From Chitinophagales bacterium (GTDB lineage Bacteria > Bacteroidota > Bacteroidia > Chitinophagales > CAIOSU01), in the NCBI GenBank assembly GCA_018401955.1, contig JAGYJT010000013.1, forward strand, positions 1-64,000: a stretch of 64,000 nt of DNA. Reading direction: 5' to 3'. Below are positions 24,933 through 32,724 of the stretch, piece by piece. A model generated the notes under the pieces. It made no database searches and was not told the DNA's origin. It was given only the letters and a program-made list of their open reading frames with translations. The number at the start of each line of letters is the position of its first letter. Within the stretch, counting starts at the first letter, position 1. A program made the position numbers and the translations under genes.

Positions 24933-24940
24933 TAGCTTTG
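24933..24940 (+). promoter_or_regulatory. Candidate -7 box of the nqr operon
   Basis: TAGCTTTG matches TAnnTTTG and ends 31 bases before the nqrA start. TTG triplets lie 12 and 25 bases upstream, neither at the best spacing. The 24715-24970 gap holds nothing else that I can identify. Confidence 0.45.
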
Positions 24941-24971: not shown

Positions 24972-26681
24972 ATGATAAACTATCGGAAACGGGTTTTAAA
25001 CTTAACTAATAAGTTGAAATACCAATCTTCTTTAAAGCTGGCCGCAACTTTAGCCTTGATCGCGATATGCGGTCAACTGCCAGCGCAGACTGCAGAATCT
25101 ATTTCTCAACCAAGCAACAATTTGGAAGCCATACTATTGGCCGTATCGCTTATTACCGTAGTGTTGGTAGGCTTTGTGGTATTTATGGTTTCTGATAAGC
25201 TGATAACCATATCCGCTGTAAGGGTGCGTGGGGAGTCGGTGCTTGAAGACGAGGATGCTACTGCCGACCTTTCACTTATTCCTTCGCTCAAAGAAATTTT
25301 GCCAGCTGATGCCCATGCGAGCTATGTAGGTAAGGTGCACAACCTTAAGCGTGGCTTTGACGTGAAAATTTCGGGCAAAGCCGCATTGGTGGTTGCAGGC
25401 GATTTAAACTCGCCAAGCCACTCGGTAAAACCTACCGACTTTTTAGGCATGCAGCCCATACCTAAAATGATGGTTGAAGAGGGCCAAGAAGTTAAGGCTG
25501 GCGACCCTTTGTTTTTTGATAAAAACAAACCTGAGGTGTTGTATACAGCCCCAGTTAGCGGTGAGGTTACTCAAATTCGCCGTGGTGAGAAACGCTCAAT
25601 TGTTGAGGTGGTTATATTGGCCGACAAGCAAATATCGTTTAAAGATTTTGGCAAGGCTGACCCTAATAGCCTTAGCCGCGAAGAGGTGGTGAGTCGTATG
25701 TTGGAGTCTGGTTTATGGACTGCCTTGCGCCAGCGCCCATTTGACATTACCCCTGACCATAATGATGTACCTAAGGGTATCTTTATTTCCGGTTTCGATT
25801 CTGCTCCTCTGGCAGTTAACTATAATTTTACCTTAAAAGGAGAGTCTGTTGCTTTCCAAGCAGGTATTGATGCGTTGCGCAAACTAACTAATGGGCAGGT
25901 GCACCTTAGCTTAAATGCTGCTAAAACCCCGGTTGATACTTACTTGAATGCTCAAAATGTTGAGAAACATTGGTTTAAAGGCGCACACCCAGCTGGTACG
26001 GTAGGTGTTCAAATTCACCACATTAGCCCAGTGGGCAAAGGTGAAAGTGCATGGTATATCAATCCTCAAGATGTGGTAATATTGGGTCGCTTGTTTACTG
26101 AGGGTAAATACAATACCAAGCAGTTGGTAGCTGTAGCAGGCCCAGAGGTTACCAAGCCACAATACTATACTACTTACAAAGGTGCCAATGTAGGTGCTTT
26201 GGTAAATAATAATGTTGGTATTGAGAACGTGCGCTACATAAGTGGAAACGTGCTTACCGGCACCGCAGTTACTACCACTGACCATTTAGGTGCTTATGAC
26301 CGACTGGTTTCGGTAGTTGAAGAAGGTGATTTCTATGAGTTCTTGGGTTGGATTTTACCAAGTTATGCTCGTCCTAGTTTATCTCCAACATTTCCTTGGG
26401 GTATATACTCAGGTATGGAGTATGATGTAAATACCAACACCCATGGTGAAGAGCGTGCATTTGTAATGACTGGTCAGTACGAAGAGGTATTGCCTATGGA
26501 TGTATACCCTCAGCACTTATTGAAAGCAATTATGGCCCGTGATTTTGAAAAAATGGAAGGCCTAGGTATATATGAGGTTGGTGAAGAAGAAATGGCTATT
26601 TGTGAATTTGTTTGTACATCAAAGCAGCCTGTTCAAGCCATCCTTCGCGACGGTTTAGATTACATGAGAGAACAAAGTTAA
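24972..26681 (+). CDS. nqrA: Na+-translocating NADH:quinone reductase subunit A with N-terminal membrane extension
   Basis: A protein of 569 residues, where NqrA usually has about 450. The standard part starts at about residue 123 (HNLKRGFDVKISGKA) and is complete: FLGMQPIPKMMVEEGQEV, VLYTAPVSGEVTQIRRGEKR, LRQRPFDITPDHNDVP, a HQISP-like HHISPVGKGE and the C-terminal ICEFVCTSKQPVQ. The first 122 residues are extra: a hydrophobic segment at about 21-39 ending in LPAQ like a signal peptide, then a strong membrane helix at about 51-74, then an acidic linker. NqrA binds quinone at the cytoplasmic face and normally has no membrane helix. First gene of nqrABCDEF. No alternative start inside the extension is obvious. 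Confidence 0.93.
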   Translation: MINYRKRVLNLTNKLKYQSSLKLAATLALIAICGQLPAQTAESISQPSNNLEAILLAVSLITVVLVGFVVFMVSDKLITISAVRVRGESVLEDEDATADLSLIPSLKEILPADAHASYVGKVHNLKRGFDVKISGKAALVVAGDLNSPSHSVKPTDFLGMQPIPKMMVEEGQEVKAGDPLFFDKNKPEVLYTAPVSGEVTQIRRGEKRSIVEVVILADKQISFKDFGKADPNSLSREEVVSRMLESGLWTALRQRPFDITPDHNDVPKGIFISGFDSAPLAVNYNFTLKGESVAFQAGIDALRKLTNGQVHLSLNAAKTPVDTYLNAQNVEKHWFKGAHPAGTVGVQIHHISPVGKGESAWYINPQDVVILGRLFTEGKYNTKQLVAVAGPEVTKPQYYTTYKGANVGALVNNNVGIENVRYISGNVLTGTAVTTTDHLGAYDRLVSVVEEGDFYEFLGWILPSYARPSLSPTFPWGIYSGMEYDVNTNTHGEERAFVMTGQYEEVLPMDVYPQHLLKAIMARDFEKMEGLGIYEVGEEEMAICEFVCTSKQPVQAILRDGLDYMREQS

Positions 26682-26708
26682 GTACCCAGTATAAATTAGA
26701 TTCGTTAA

Positions 26709-28106
26709 ATGAAACCATTACTGAATTTACTGGAGAAGCTGGAAGGCGCATCAAAGAAGAATAAGTACTTACACACTACTTATGATGCCTTTGCCACCTT
26801 TCTTTTTCAGCCTAAAGAAACCACTGGCCTAAAGGGTGGTGTTCACGTACGCGATGGCATGGACCTAAAGCGTACCATGGTACACGTGGTTATTGCCATG
26901 CAATTGGCATTATTGCACGGTTTTATTAACATTGGCCACCAGCACTATGTTGCGTTGGGCATGTATCCAGATTTGTTTGACGGCTTCTTTTTGAAAGCTG
27001 CCTACGGGTTGTTGCAACTATTGCCTCTTATAATTGTAGTGCACGTAGTTGGTTTGGGTATTGAGTTTGTGTTTGCTGCCATTAAGGGACATGCGGTAGA
27101 AGAAGGTTTCTTGGTATCAGGTATGCTTATTCCGTTGATTATGCCGCCAGCTACACCATTATGGATGGTAGCCGTAGCTACAGCATTTGCAGTAGTAGTT
27201 GCCAAAGAAGCATTTGGTGGGACGGGTATGAACTTGTTGAACATAGCATTAACCGCCCGTGTATTCGTATTTTTTGCATACCCTACTGAGATATCGGGTG
27301 ATGTGGTTTGGATAAGTTACGATTACAACTTGTTGCACCAATTGTTTGGTATGAAACAACACACGCTTGATGTACTAACCAGTATGTACGGAAGCTTAGA
27401 TGTGGCTAGCATGCCAAAGTTTGTGCCGGAAAGCGTTAAAAAGGCAATGGATGCAGGTGCTTTAAGCGTTGCATCGATTGCTGATGGTGCTAAAGGTTTT
27501 CAAGCATTGGTGGTTGACGGTTATTCTGGTGCTACACCGCTAGCCCTTGCCGCTCAAGGTGGCTGGGATAAAGTATTAGCAGCAAAATTACCTGATGGCA
27601 GCCAGCAATATTCTACTAGCAATCTTTGGTGGGGCATCATGCCGGGCTCTATTGGCGAGATGAACAAGATTTTCATTATTCTGGGTGCTATTTTCTTGGC
27701 GGTAACCAAAATTGCTAGTTGGCGTATTATGGCCTCTATGGTGCTAGGTTGTGCTGTAGTGGGTATCTTGTTTAATATGTTGGCTGTTGGCATAGCTGCC
27801 GAAAGTCAAATTTCGGTTACCAGCATGTTTATTGGAGTGCCTTGGCAGTATCAGTTTGCTATGGGTAGCTTTTTCTTTGCTATGGCATTTATGGCTACCG
27901 ACCCAGTAACTGCTAGTGCAACTAATACAGGAAAATTAGTGTATGGATTTATGATAGGTGCTTTGGGTATGGTAATTAGGGTGCTTAACCCAGCTTACCC
28001 TGAAGGTTGGATGCTTGCCATCTTGTTTATGAATGTGTTCGCACCACTTATCGACCATATAGTTTTGTCTTTTAACATGAAAAAACGCTTGAGCCGTGCC
28101 GTTTAA
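26709..28106 (+). CDS. nqrB: Na+-NQR subunit B
   Basis: A protein of 465 residues with about ten membrane helices. The N-terminus (LLEKLEGASKKNKYLHTTYDAFATFLF) and GGTGMNLLNIALTARVFVFFAYP are NqrB hallmarks. The covalent flavin site is in GYSGATPLALAAQGG, where the Thr of SGAT carries FMN through a phosphoester bond. NqrB also binds riboflavin and forms part of the Na+ path in the inner membrane. The gene lies 27 bases after nqrA and its stop is overlapped by the nqrC start. Confidence 0.96.
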   Translation: MKPLLNLLEKLEGASKKNKYLHTTYDAFATFLFQPKETTGLKGGVHVRDGMDLKRTMVHVVIAMQLALLHGFINIGHQHYVALGMYPDLFDGFFLKAAYGLLQLLPLIIVVHVVGLGIEFVFAAIKGHAVEEGFLVSGMLIPLIMPPATPLWMVAVATAFAVVVAKEAFGGTGMNLLNIALTARVFVFFAYPTEISGDVVWISYDYNLLHQLFGMKQHTLDVLTSMYGSLDVASMPKFVPESVKKAMDAGALSVASIADGAKGFQALVVDGYSGATPLALAAQGGWDKVLAAKLPDGSQQYSTSNLWWGIMPGSIGEMNKIFIILGAIFLAVTKIASWRIMASMVLGCAVVGILFNMLAVGIAAESQISVTSMFIGVPWQYQFAMGSFFFAMAFMATDPVTASATNTGKLVYGFMIGALGMVIRVLNPAYPEGWMLAILFMNVFAPLIDHIVLSFNMKKRLSRAV

Positions 28107-28830
28107 CCGCGATTCCACATCATACATACTCATTTTCGTTGCCATTATGGTAGGCGTAGTGGCTATATCTTTAGCTTTTGTAAGCTCTGCGCTGCAACCT
28201 ACTATTAAGGATAACGAGGTGTTGGATAAAAAAATCCAGATTTTGAGTTCTGTTATTACTGATAAAGAGTTTACAAAGGACTTTGTAAACGCTCAGTACG
28301 AAGGGAATATTGAAGAAATGCTCGTTGACAAAGACGGTAATAAAATTGCCGTTGATGCCGATAACAAACCTTTCGATATAGCCTTGAACTTCAATAAAGA
28401 AATCCGTAAACCAGAAGAAGAGCGCAGGTATCCTGTGTTTAAATACTCAGGGGATAATGGTGAATACTACATCTTGCCATTAGAAGGTCAAGGTCTTTGG
28501 GATCGTATTTGGGGTTATGTTTCTGTTGAGAGTGATTTCAATACCATCTATGGTAGTTCTTTTGGTCACAAAGGTGAAACCCCAGGTTTGGGCGCATTGA
28601 TTACCGAGATGTGGTTTCAAAAGCAATTCAACGGCAAAAAAGCTTTTGATGTTGATGGTGTATACCAACTTGAAGTATTAAAAGGGCAAGGAAACGAATT
28701 GGCAAAAACCAGTACATATAACGTTGACGGTATTTCGGGTGCAACTATTACAGCCCAAGGCGTTGATGCCATGCTAGAGAAAGGCTTTAATATGTATAGG
28801 CCATATTTTGAAAAAGTAAGCGAAAACTAA
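28096..28830 (+). CDS. nqrC: Na+-NQR subunit C
   Basis: A protein of 244 residues from a GTG start that overlaps nqrB by 11 bases. One N-terminal helix (about residues 9-31) anchors a periplasmic FMN domain. The covalent flavin motif is DGISGATITAQGVDAML near residues 212-228, where the Thr after SGA (SGAT) is flavinylated by ApbE. Sequence GHKGETPGLGALI before it is also typical. The protein takes electrons within the complex. Encoded in standard order between nqrB and nqrD. Confidence 0.95.
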   Translation: MPFNRDSTSYILIFVAIMVGVVAISLAFVSSALQPTIKDNEVLDKKIQILSSVITDKEFTKDFVNAQYEGNIEEMLVDKDGNKIAVDADNKPFDIALNFNKEIRKPEEERRYPVFKYSGDNGEYYILPLEGQGLWDRIWGYVSVESDFNTIYGSSFGHKGETPGLGALITEMWFQKQFNGKKAFDVDGVYQLEVLKGQGNELAKTSTYNVDGISGATITAQGVDAMLEKGFNMYRPYFEKVSEN

Positions 28831-28835
28831 TAAAG

Positions 28836-29498
28836 ATGAGTGAAGTAGCACAAGCAACAAAAAGCGAAGGGCTGTTCAGTAAAAAGAACCGCCGCTTGCT
28901 CGTTGACCCGTTGAATGATACCAACCCGATTACGGTGCAGGTGTTGGGTATCTGTTCGGCGCTGGCAGTTACCTCTTCGGTAATGAATTCTTTGGTTATG
29001 GGTATCGGTGTTACCTTGGTGGCATCTTTGGCCAATTTAACCATCTCTTCATTGCGAAACTATATACCCAATCGTATACGTATGATTGTGCAATTGGTAG
29101 TTATTGCTTGGTTGGTAACTTTGGTATCCATCTTTTTGCAAGCTTTCCTTTACGATACTTATAAAGAGCTATCGGTTTTCGTTGGTTTGATTATTACCAA
29201 CTGTATCGTAATGGGTCGTTTGGAAGCATATGCTATGGCCAACAAGCCTTGGCCATCATTTTTGGATGGTTTTGGTAACGGTTTGGGCTACACTGTTATC
29301 CTTTTAGCTATTGGTGCTATCCGCGAGATTTTTGGTGCTGGTAAGTTTTTGGATTTCCAAGTTATACCTAATGCTGTCTATGACCTGGGTTATGCCAACA
29401 ATGGTTTGATGGTATTGCCTATATCGTCTATCATCCTTATCGGTATAATTATTTGGATTCAGCGCGGATTTAACCAGAAGTTGGTTGACGTATCTTGA
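28836..29498 (+). CDS. nqrD: Na+-NQR subunit D
   Basis: A protein of 220 residues with six membrane helices. NPITVQVLGICSALAVTSSV near the start and GLIITNCIVMGRLEAYAM are NqrD/RnfE-type signatures; the conserved Cys residues in both segments are the ones that hold the intramembrane iron-sulfur site together with NqrE. A soluble N-terminal tail of about 25 residues is Lys-rich. Five bases separate it from nqrC. Confidence 0.96.
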   Translation: MSEVAQATKSEGLFSKKNRRLLVDPLNDTNPITVQVLGICSALAVTSSVMNSLVMGIGVTLVASLANLTISSLRNYIPNRIRMIVQLVVIAWLVTLVSIFLQAFLYDTYKELSVFVGLIITNCIVMGRLEAYAMANKPWPSFLDGFGNGLGYTVILLAIGAIREIFGAGKFLDFQVIPNAVYDLGYANNGLMVLPISSIILIGIIIWIQRGFNQKLVDVS

Positions 29499-29522
29499 TA
29501 ACTACAAGCAGAAAATAAACAA

Positions 29523-30134
29523 ATGGAAGCTTTAAACGTTTTTATAAAAGCAGCCTTCATCGAGAACATGGTGTTGGCTTATTTCTTGGGAATGTGTTCT
29601 TTTTTGGCCGTTTCTAAGAGTGTAAACACCGCAGTTGGTTTGGGTGCAGCTGTAATATTCGTGTTGTCTATTACAGTGCCAATTAACTGGATAGTTTACA
29701 ATAAATTATTGGCAGAAGGTGCACTAGCGTGGATACACCCCTCTATGGCTACGGTAGACCTTACCTTTTTAGGTTTGATAGTTTACATTGCGGTTATCGC
29801 ATCTATGGTGCAGGTGGTTGAGATGGTTGTAGAACGCTTTTCTCCAACCTTGTATAACTCACTCGGTATTTTCTTGCCTTTGATTACGGTAAACTGTGCC
29901 ATTTTGGGTGGGGTATTGTTTATGATAACCAAAGAGTTGAGTTTTGGGCTAAGCTCAGTGTACGGTTTTGGGGCTGGTTTTGGTTTCTTCTTGGCCATTG
30001 TAGCTATGTCGGCTATCCGTGAGAAGCTACGTTACAGCAATGTACCTGCCCCACTTCGTGGTTTAGGTATTGCCTTTATCATTACTGGCCTTATGGGCAT
30101 TGCCTTTATGAGCTTGGTAGGAATTAAATTATAA
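29523..30134 (+). CDS. nqrE: Na+-NQR subunit E
   Basis: A protein of 203 residues with six membrane helices, sequence-related to NqrD in inverted topology. [20 protein letters not shown] and [18 protein letters not shown] contain the conserved Cys residues that complete the iron site. Ends in [18 protein letters not shown]. The gene follows nqrD by 24 bases and precedes nqrF by 25. Confidence 0.96.
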
Positions 30135-30159
30135 TAACGCAGAATTAAATCCTTGAGCA

Positions 30160-31431
30160 ATGATGCTTTTCGGTGCAATTGAAATATCCGTGATATTGGC
30201 TAGTGTAGGTGCTTTCGCCCTTATACTGAGCTTATTGGTAGGAATGCTACTATTTGCGAAGGCCAAGTTGGTACCTTCAGGAGATGTAAGCATAATAGTA
30301 AATGGCGATAGCGCAGATCCTTTGGTGGTTTCTCCTGGTGTATCGTTGCTAGGTGCCTTATCAGAAAAGAATGTATTTCTTCCATCTGCTTGTGGTGGTG
30401 GTGGCACTTGTGCTATGTGCAAATGCCAGGTGCTTGATGGTGGCGGTGATGTATTGCCTACCGAGTTGAACCACTTAACACGCAAAGAAGCTGCCGATCA
30501 CTGGCGTTTGGCTTGCCAAGTGAAAGTTCGCGGTGATATGAAGATTAAAGTGCCAGAAGAAATTTTTGGTATCAAAAAGTGGGATTGTACCGTTAAGAGC
30601 AATGATAACGTTGCAACTTACATTAAAGAGTTTGTTGTTCAATTGCCAGAAGGCGAGCACCTAGAGTTTGAATCTGGTGGTTATATACAGGTGGATGTAC
30701 CAGCTATTACCGTGAACTTTAAGAATGACTTGTATGCTATTCCTGACAAGTTCCGTGATGATTACGATAATTACAAAATTTGGGATTTGACCATGAAGAA
30801 TCCTGAGCCGGTGTTCCGTGCTTACTCTATGGCCAACCACCCAGCAGAAGGTAACATCATCATGTTGAACATTCGTTTGGCAACACCTCCTTTCGACCGT
30901 GCCAAAAACGGCTGGATGGATGTAAATCCAGGCATTTGCTCTTCATTTGTGTTCTCTCGTAAACCTGGTGATAAAGTAACTATCTCTGGCCCTTATGGTG
31001 AGTTCTTTATTAAGCCTACTGACAAAGAGATGGTTTATATCGGCGGTGGCGCAGGTATGGCTCCATTACGCTCACACATCTTCCACTTGTTCCATACTAT
31101 GAAGAGCGATCGTAAGGTTTCCTATTGGTACGGTGGTCGTTCAAAGCGTGAATTGTTCTATACTGATCAGTTCCGTGATATTGAGAAAGACTTTCCTAAC
31201 TTCCAGTACAATGAAGCATTGTCAGAGCCTATGGAGGCTGACAACTGGACGGGTTACCAAGGTTTCATTCACAAGGTGTTGTATGATAACTACTTGAGTA
31301 AGCATCCTGAGCCAGAAGAAATTGAGTACTACCTATGTGGCCCACCAATGATGATACAAGCAGTATTGAAAATGCTTGACGATTTGGGAGTACCAGAATC
31401 AAATATTGCTTTTGACGATTTCGGAAGCTAA
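30160..31431 (+). CDS. nqrF: Na+-NQR subunit F (NADH dehydrogenase, 2Fe-2S/FAD)
   Basis: A protein of 423 residues. An N-terminal membrane helix (about 7-29) is followed by a ferredoxin domain with [15 protein letters not shown] supplying three of the four Cys ligands and LACQVK the fourth. The reductase part has FRAYSMAN for FAD binding, [13 protein letters not shown] for NADH binding and YYLCGPPMM near the end. NqrF oxidises NADH and feeds electrons into the pump. It ends the operon; a strong terminator follows after 12 bases. Confidence 0.97.
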
Positions 31432-31480: not shown

Positions 31481-31641
31481 TTGTGTCATGGTGAGCGGAG
31501 CCGAACCATCCGCAATACAGTAACGAAACGTTAAGTGCAAAACGGGTATTGATATTTAATATTATAGTATTTTGCCACCTACAAAATGGATGGTTCGTAG
31601 TTCGACTACGCCCACTATGACATCCGCTCACCATGACACAA
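31481..31641. repeat. 161-base inverted-repeat element between nqrF and apbE
   Basis: Nineteen bases at 31481-31499 recur perfectly inverted at 31623-31641, and an inner pair cgaaccatcc (31502-31511) / ggatggttcg (31588-31597) is nested inside. The middle contains a smaller hairpin cgtag-ttcga-ctacg. No open frame lies within. It resembles a small non-autonomous or REP-derived element built from the GAGCG/AGTCGAA family. Confidence 0.8.
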
Positions 31642-31671
31642 GAGGGTGCTATCCCCACAACACTAAACTCA

Positions 31672-32724
31672 ATGAAACACCTTCTCCTCCTTCCAATAAT
31701 AGCCTTAATATTCGCTTGCAACCAGCCAGCACCCAAAACCATACAAGAGGTAAAGTTGGAGGGCAATACTATGGGCACCACTTATCATATAACCTATCTT
31801 GATTCAGCTGGGAATAACTATCAGAAGGAGATTGATTCCGTGTTGGTAGCAGTTAATAATTCCATGTCTACGTATATCCCAACTTCCTTGATATCTCAGT
31901 TCAATCAAAGGGATAGTATGAGGCAGTTGGAGGTAGATGAGCACTTTGCTAAGGTATATAACTTATCTCGAAGCGTATATTTTACCACTGATGGCTCTTT
32001 TAACCCAACAGTGATGCCATTGGTAAACCTTTTTGGTTTTGGTTTTGAGAAAATGGGCGAAGTGGATTCAGTAACTGTTGATAGCTTATTATCACTACTT
32101 CAATTTGACTCTATTATTTTACTTACTGTCGCTCCAGAAACCCCATCACAGAAGTTTATCATTTTTAAGAAAGAGCCACATTTGCAACTTGATTTCTCCG
32201 CAGTAGCTAAAGGTTATGGTGTTGATGTGGTTGGTTTGGTATTGGAAAGCAAGGGCATAACCAATTACATGGTTGAGATTGGTGGCGAAGTGCGCGTGCG
32301 TGGTATTAACAAAGCAGGTGAAAAGTGGCGCATCGGCATTGATAAGCCTAGTGAAAGCTTAGGTATGGGTCACGAGTTTGAAGCCATTATACAATTAGAA
32401 AACGAAAGTATGGCAACTTCTGGCAATTATCGAAACTTTAAAGAGAAAGATGGAGTAAAGTATGTGCATACCATCAACCCAAGAACAGGCTGGCCCGAGA
32501 TAAATAATACGCTTAGTGTATCGGTAATAGCTAAAGATTGTGCCACTGCAGATGCCTATGCTACGGCTTTTATGGTAATGGGTGTGGACAGTGCATATGA
32601 AATAGCCCTAGCAGATACTTTGCTTGAGGCGTATTTTATTTATTCAGGTGCCAATGGCGAGTTGTTGACAAAACAAACTCCTGGTTTGGATAAAAAACTT
32701 ACTGCTCTGGAACAATTGAATTAA
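31672..32724 (+). CDS. apbE: FAD:protein FMN transferase ApbE, lipoprotein
   Basis: A protein of 350 residues from ATG at 31672; an in-frame ATG at 31633 lies in the inverted-repeat element and is rejected. A lipobox ends in IFAC at about residues 14-17. The ApbE signatures are present: GNTMGTTYHITYLD at the start of the domain, LDFSAVAKGYGVDVV, EIGGEVRVRG, SMATSGNYRNF and INPRTGWP, with the late TADAYATAFMVMG holding metal-binding residues. The enzyme cuts FAD and transfers FMN to Thr in NqrB and NqrC in the periplasm. Its position after nqrF makes those the likely substrates. Confidence 0.95.
   Translation: MKHLLLLPIIALIFACNQPAPKTIQEVKLEGNTMGTTYHITYLDSAGNNYQKEIDSVLVAVNNSMSTYIPTSLISQFNQRDSMRQLEVDEHFAKVYNLSRSVYFTTDGSFNPTVMPLVNLFGFGFEKMGEVDSVTVDSLLSLLQFDSIILLTVAPETPSQKFIIFKKEPHLQLDFSAVAKGYGVDVVGLVLESKGITNYMVEIGGEVRVRGINKAGEKWRIGIDKPSESLGMGHEFEAIIQLENESMATSGNYRNFKEKDGVKYVHTINPRTGWPEINNTLSVSVIAKDCATADAYATAFMVMGVDSAYEIALADTLLEAYFIYSGANGELLTKQTPGLDKKLTALEQLN

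Follow-up and report, generated by a model that had tools for sequence, protein, structure and literature searches.

A predicted N-terminal membrane anchor on the NqrA subunit of Na+-NQR in Chitinophagales

Introduction

NqrA has been described as the sole subunit of Na+-NQR that has no membrane helix, and a 2025 review assigns it no direct function (PMC12174285). In the V. cholerae enzyme, NqrA has no helix and is attached to NqrB and the membrane through loop 330-379, which is intertwined with NqrB residues 34-54 (PMC9325719). The nqrA gene of a Chitinophagales bacterium, found in a 64,000-nucleotide stretch of DNA (positions 1 to 64,000 of contig JAGYJT010000013.1, here called the window), raises the question of whether this description holds for every NqrA, since its open frame places a signal-like segment and a putative membrane helix before the core of the protein. 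Is this extension translated, and, if it is, does it hold NqrA in the membrane? A literature search covering open-licence papers only returned no description of it, and its novelty is thus not proven, but a membrane anchor belonging to NqrA itself appears to have been undescribed so far.

The nqr operon and the NqrA core

Family models run on the open reading frames of the window revealed a complete nqrABCDEF operon at 24972-31431 with apbE downstream:

24972..26681, + strand: nqrA with N-terminal extension, first gene of the operon, ATG start, 569 aa
26709..28106, + strand: nqrB, usual N-terminal stretch present
28096..28830, + strand: nqrC
28836..29498, + strand: nqrD
29523..30134, + strand: nqrE
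30160..31431, + strand: nqrF
31633..32724, + strand: apbE, FMN transferase gene, 3' of the operon

The nqrA frame is open for 581 codons from stop to stop. The nqrC gene, listed with a GTG start, shares its first 11 bases with the end of nqrB (28096-28106). NqrB is 465 aa long, with an insertion at residues 225-253 (27381-27467) that precedes an SGAT sequence; this insertion and a few other short stretches are found in fewer than 40% of the homologues.

The NqrA matches to family models start late in the protein: NF003761 covers residues 124-567 (E 1e-159, 531.7 bits against a curated cut-off of 450), TIGR01936 covers residues 125-566 (E 5e-136, 454.1 bits, cut-off 321), and Pfam NQRA_N begins at residue 125. 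About 122 residues therefore precede the core, as the first-pass annotation had claimed; the reading frame and the limits of the two equivalog matches both bear out an extension of 122 residues in frame with a core of ordinary length. The alignment with V. cholerae NqrA, by sequence as well as by structure, begins at residue 124, and all three Pfam domains of the V. cholerae protein are shared. With Foldseek, the core matched V. cholerae NqrA chains 8a1y_A and 7xk3_A at a target TM-score of 0.94. Two parts of the core are referred to below:

25338..26678, + strand: NqrA core, residues 123-569 (family models, V. cholerae alignment, Foldseek)
26331..26477, + strand: approximate counterpart of the V. 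cholerae NqrA 330-379 loop, retained (alignment)

The window protein thus scores above the equivalog cut-offs, occupies the nqrA place in the operon and has the NqrA fold. It departs from the "no transmembrane helix" description in having a helix at residues 51-73, but this description was drawn from solved complexes and is not a criterion that the family models use. A protein that passes all NqrA models and yet carries a helix is best regarded as an NqrA variant, and family or homology models leave a conserved part of it uncovered when they begin at the core.

Architecture of the extension

The extension can be divided as follows:

24972..25085, + strand: signal peptide, residues 1-38 (sequence; Q-rule column of homologues)
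25086..25127, + strand: mature N-terminus (predicted to be Q39) with a short linker in the periplasm, residues 39-52, lacking K and R (A38|Q39 fits the Bacteroidetes Q-rule, PMC5837995)
25128..25190, + strand: transmembrane helix, residues 53-73 (homologues; AlphaFold helix 49-86)
25191..25226, + strand: conserved motif at the inner boundary, residues 74-85, SDKLITISAVRV, with (S/A)DNLxxIEAK as consensus (homologue alignment)
25227..25337, + strand: acidic cytoplasmic linker with proline, residues 86-122 (homologues, AlphaFold)

An AlphaFold2 model built from 82 aligned sequences has a confident core and a single helix at residues 49-86 (pLDDT about 81-91 over 51-80), which includes the hydrophobic segment at about residues 51-73 and extends beyond the membrane into the conserved (S/A)D(N/K)LxxI(E/S)A motif. 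Residues 4-33 are also helical, while residues 1-20 and 38-47 are of low confidence. The arrangement proposed in the first-pass annotation, a hydrophobic segment ending in LPAQ followed by the helix and then by a linker, is confirmed. No Pfam domain matched the window extension, and the extensions of homologues gave scattered weak matches to unrelated helix families, none of them consistent.

The extension as coding sequence

If translation started near residue 120, the upstream frame would be an untranslated leader that is open by chance. V. cholerae NqrA and most NqrAs of Bacteroidia do begin there, and nearly all Bacteroidia NqrAs other than the extended ones start five residues before the core. 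We read 73 NqrA genes with the extension, all of them from the host's order. The dN/dS values in the extension are 0.07-0.35 for close pairs, near or somewhat above the core value, and this purifying selection, together with the conservation of the extension in the 73 genes, argues that it is not a product of chance. Only 4 of the 73 extended genes have an ATG no more than 12 codons from the core start, vs 47 of 51 unextended ones, i.e., the extended genes have no conserved start codon at the core. The promoter also sits before the distal start. In the window, this is represented by the following element:

24933..24940, + strand: TAGCTTTG, which fits TAnnTTTG, the -7 promoter element of Bacteroidota, and lies 39 nt upstream of the distal ATG

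Of 72 extended loci, 66 have the TAnnTTTG element no more than 150 nt upstream of the distal ATG, where shuffles would lead one to expect 7.6; among unextended genes, 44 of 52 have it ahead of the canonical start. It precedes the core start in 2 of the 72 extended loci, a control that is itself coding sequence inside the extension, so that composition may explain part of the contrast. Translation from near residue 120 thus seems hardly credible. By four independent lines of sequence comparison, the extension is a real, translated coding sequence, and the same comparison establishes that it is conserved and built as a signal peptide followed by a helix. Its absence from close relatives with intact upstream sequence, which the first-pass annotation had named as grounds for abandoning the idea, was looked into, and the extension survived.

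The true start in the window could be the TTG of residue 15 (25014); most homologues have their MK start at the aligned position. The possibility is raised by three homologues (L042, L075 and L083) in which the signal peptide lies upstream of the first ATG and a TTG-Lys occupies the position that matches window residue 15.

In the three closest pairs of genes, pS was lower in the extension than in the core (0.18 vs 0.56 for L005/L006, 0.35 vs 0.60 for L085/L091 and 0.31 vs 0.48 for L022/L023), as if the 5' end of the gene (24972-25337 in the window) were under an extra constraint at the nucleotide level.

Predicted signal peptide cleavage

In Bacteroidetes, most substrates of signal peptidase I have a glutamine right after the cleavage site (the Q-rule), and the validity of this rule for inner-membrane proteins was stated as remaining to be tested (PMC5837995). 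The first segment of the window protein conforms to the rule, having a positively charged n-region, a hydrophobic segment, a small residue at -1 and Q at +1 (LPA|Q). Among the homologues, a small-x-small|Q pattern precedes the helix in 56 of 59 genes; 2000 shuffles gave 22.8 on average and never more than 34. Four more genes with A|Q (L042, L075 and L083, all three with a TTG start, and L104) had first been sorted as signal-less by an ATG-only rule or by window position. A lipoprotein signal was considered and rejected: C33 is preceded by I and not by A, G or S, and the homologues lack this cysteine.

The first segment may alternatively stay uncleaved, in which case NqrA would carry a two-helix hairpin with both its N-terminus and its C-terminus inside. 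The AlphaFold helix at residues 4-33 would suit such a hairpin, as would two homologues (L115 and L119) whose first hydrophobic segment has no clear cleavage site, and cleavage itself is a prediction. Against it stands the Q in the cleavage column of 54 of the 56 aligned signal peptides, which in Bacteroidetes is typical of the proteins that signal peptidase I cuts (PMC5837995). Moreover, the first segment is dispensable: nine genes (L019, L086, L089, L090, L094, L096, L098, L102 and L117) encode no signal peptide in frame and yet retain the helix, preceded by an N-terminus that is short and uncharged. The conserved part of the extension is therefore the helix and not the signal peptide, and we regard the hairpin as rather improbable.

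Probable topology and mode of anchoring

Cleavage, topology and tethering are what we infer from these comparisons. Among the homologues, the mature outer tail contains on average 0.10 K/R residues vs 2.56 in the 20 residues that follow the helix on its inner side, a charge bias that would place the N-terminus out and the core in. In the nine signal-less variants, the short uncharged N-terminus would be another route to the same N-out orientation. The presence of a signal peptide could also be taken to mean that the NqrA core is exported to the periplasm, but the signal peptide is followed by a strong stop-transfer helix with positive charges behind it, the nine variants would attain the same orientation without any signal peptide, and the parts of NqrB and NqrF that NqrA contacts are cytoplasmic. 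Export is thus extremely unlikely. The first-pass annotation had interpreted the extension as a cleaved segment with an outside N-terminus and a helix leading inwards to a cytoplasmic core, by which NqrA would be anchored. Comparison speaks for this sequence of events on account of the Q-rule sites, the charge bias, the nine variants, the place of the promoter and the purifying selection, and the interpretation as a whole is partly supported; its suggestion of an altered quinone site found no support.

Both elements of the known attachment, the NqrA loop and the NqrB N-terminus, are kept here, so the extension would be an additional tether. A possible trade-off, with the anchor gained and the NqrA-holding stretch of NqrB lost, was looked for and not seen: the NqrB N-terminus is unchanged. 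NqrB length was also tried as a correlate of the extension, and the ranges overlap within the order.

In the reading that we consider probable, the extension is truly translated and anchors NqrA in the membrane, with a cleaved signal and an N-out/C-in helix, added to the retained attachment to NqrB. The signal peptide would direct the N-terminus of NqrA to Sec, signal peptidase I would cut at A38|Q39, and Q39 would probably be cyclised to pyroglutamate. Helix 51-73 would then stop the transfer, leaving an N-out/C-in protein in which a linker of about 40 residues connects the helix to a normal cytoplasmic NqrA core. The anchor would add to the attachment between the NqrA C-loop and the NqrB N-terminus rather than replace it, and it probably holds NqrA close to NqrB and NqrF while the complex assembles and turns over.

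The inner boundary of the helix and a possible docking role

No conserved helix face was found in the aligned homologues (p = 0.61), and hence there is no evident specific packing partner; a helix of this kind fits a lipid-facing anchor. The (S/A)DNLxxIEAK motif at its inner end is conserved far above the helix itself (D in 55 of 67, E in 47 of 66 and A in 47 of 66 aligned rows), which hints at a contact there. It is possible, therefore, that the boundary segment, (S/A)DNLxxIEAKxxG, is not the mere end of an anchor but a docking element for a specific partner such as NqrB, NqrF or another respiratory complex. Besides this conservation, hhalign finds the profile of the extension similar to the N-terminus of CcoP (probability 95.5) and to a helix of ActA (76.5), and not to the anchors of NqrF and NqrC. 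The lack of a conserved helix face argues against docking, as does the fact that profile likeness between segments made of a signal peptide and a helix is largely compositional, and the motif is lost in some members of the group, such as L121 and L125. We consider docking unlikely on balance. More doubtful still is a narrower proposal, in which a specific docking anchor, related to the ones in CcoP and ActA, lets NqrA organise Na+-NQR together with other respiratory complexes in the order or fix the moving NqrF; if true, this would give NqrA a role beyond that of a passive scaffold. The two genes without a clear cleavage site, L115 and L119, likewise keep the helix without the DNLxxIEA motif, and two of the four genes L115, L119, L121 and L125 have a different first hydrophobic segment.

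Comparison with known systems

The window NqrA shares with V. cholerae NqrA (PDB 7xk3, 8a1y) its core fold, operon order and NqrB-holding C-terminal loop, whereas the V. cholerae protein has neither the transmembrane helix nor the signal peptide (PMC9325719). An anchored NqrA would be similar in design to NqrF and NqrC, each of which carries a hydrophilic domain on one N-terminal helix (PMC9325719), but their anchors have no detectable sequence relation to the NqrA extension (hhalign probabilities 2.6 and 0.7). CcoP, the subunit III of cbb3 oxidase, of the same order, has the same design of a signal peptide that usually ends in A|Q, a short linker and an N-out helix; it differs in what comes after these, another helix and a cytochrome c domain. 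The signal peptide before the first helix, usually with the A|Q end, was seen in CcoP proteins L147 and L188-L217. In ActA of alternative complex III, a helix is followed by a motif like NxLxxxAxxKEG, but this helix is internal and lies between cytochrome domains. Since the CcoP and ActA matches are short and compositionally biased, they demonstrate a shared design and not a common origin. RnfC, a distant homologue of the NqrA core according to Foldseek, differs in carrying redox cofactors, and the long C-terminal helix described for RnfC of A. vinelandii (PMC12174285) is not an N-terminal membrane anchor of the kind proposed here.

Distribution and history

Extended NqrA is carried by the window's own family (G005), by families f14, f11, f5 and f6, and by 62 loci of the large family f19. 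The extension is present in most relatives within the host's order that have Na+-NQR, and in these, as in the host, NqrA probably has an anchor of its own that fixes it in the membrane. Four genomes of the window's genus (G001-G004, 90-97% complete) gave no NqrA match, the nqr operon being patchy in the genus. Family f13 and other close lineages have full nqr operons without the extension. In a sample of the class Bacteroidia (396 genomes, 158 with a match), other NqrA open frames begin near the core, and the few long ones (e.g., L126, L127, L128 and L054) contained no helix on reading. A profile of the extension alone, run against a phylum-wide sample of 296 genomes, gave strong matches only in the host's order and weak ones elsewhere (E above 1e-4). 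The extension was also sought as a separate small gene, but no ORF with a signal peptide and a helix lies upstream of nqrA in 18 unextended loci.

In a tree built from 125 NqrA cores, the extension label requires 5 changes vs 40 for shuffled labels, and its history may be either a single old gain followed by losses or a small number of gains. Together with the helix-only variants and the losses, an order-wide anchored NqrA would make a natural comparison set for the role of membrane holding.

Five loci of f19 have no extension. In three of them (L112, L113 and L118), NqrA groups with other Bacteroidia on the tree, which suggests that nqrA, perhaps with the whole operon, was replaced by transfer. 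The remaining two (L092 and L100) look like true losses, which implies that the extension is not indispensable. In both, the upstream frame has a signal-peptide-like fragment, LTIFILFCCFAQNAN, immediately followed by a short NqrA that starts with ATG and lacks the helix, and it is possible that this fragment is a remnant of the lost extension.
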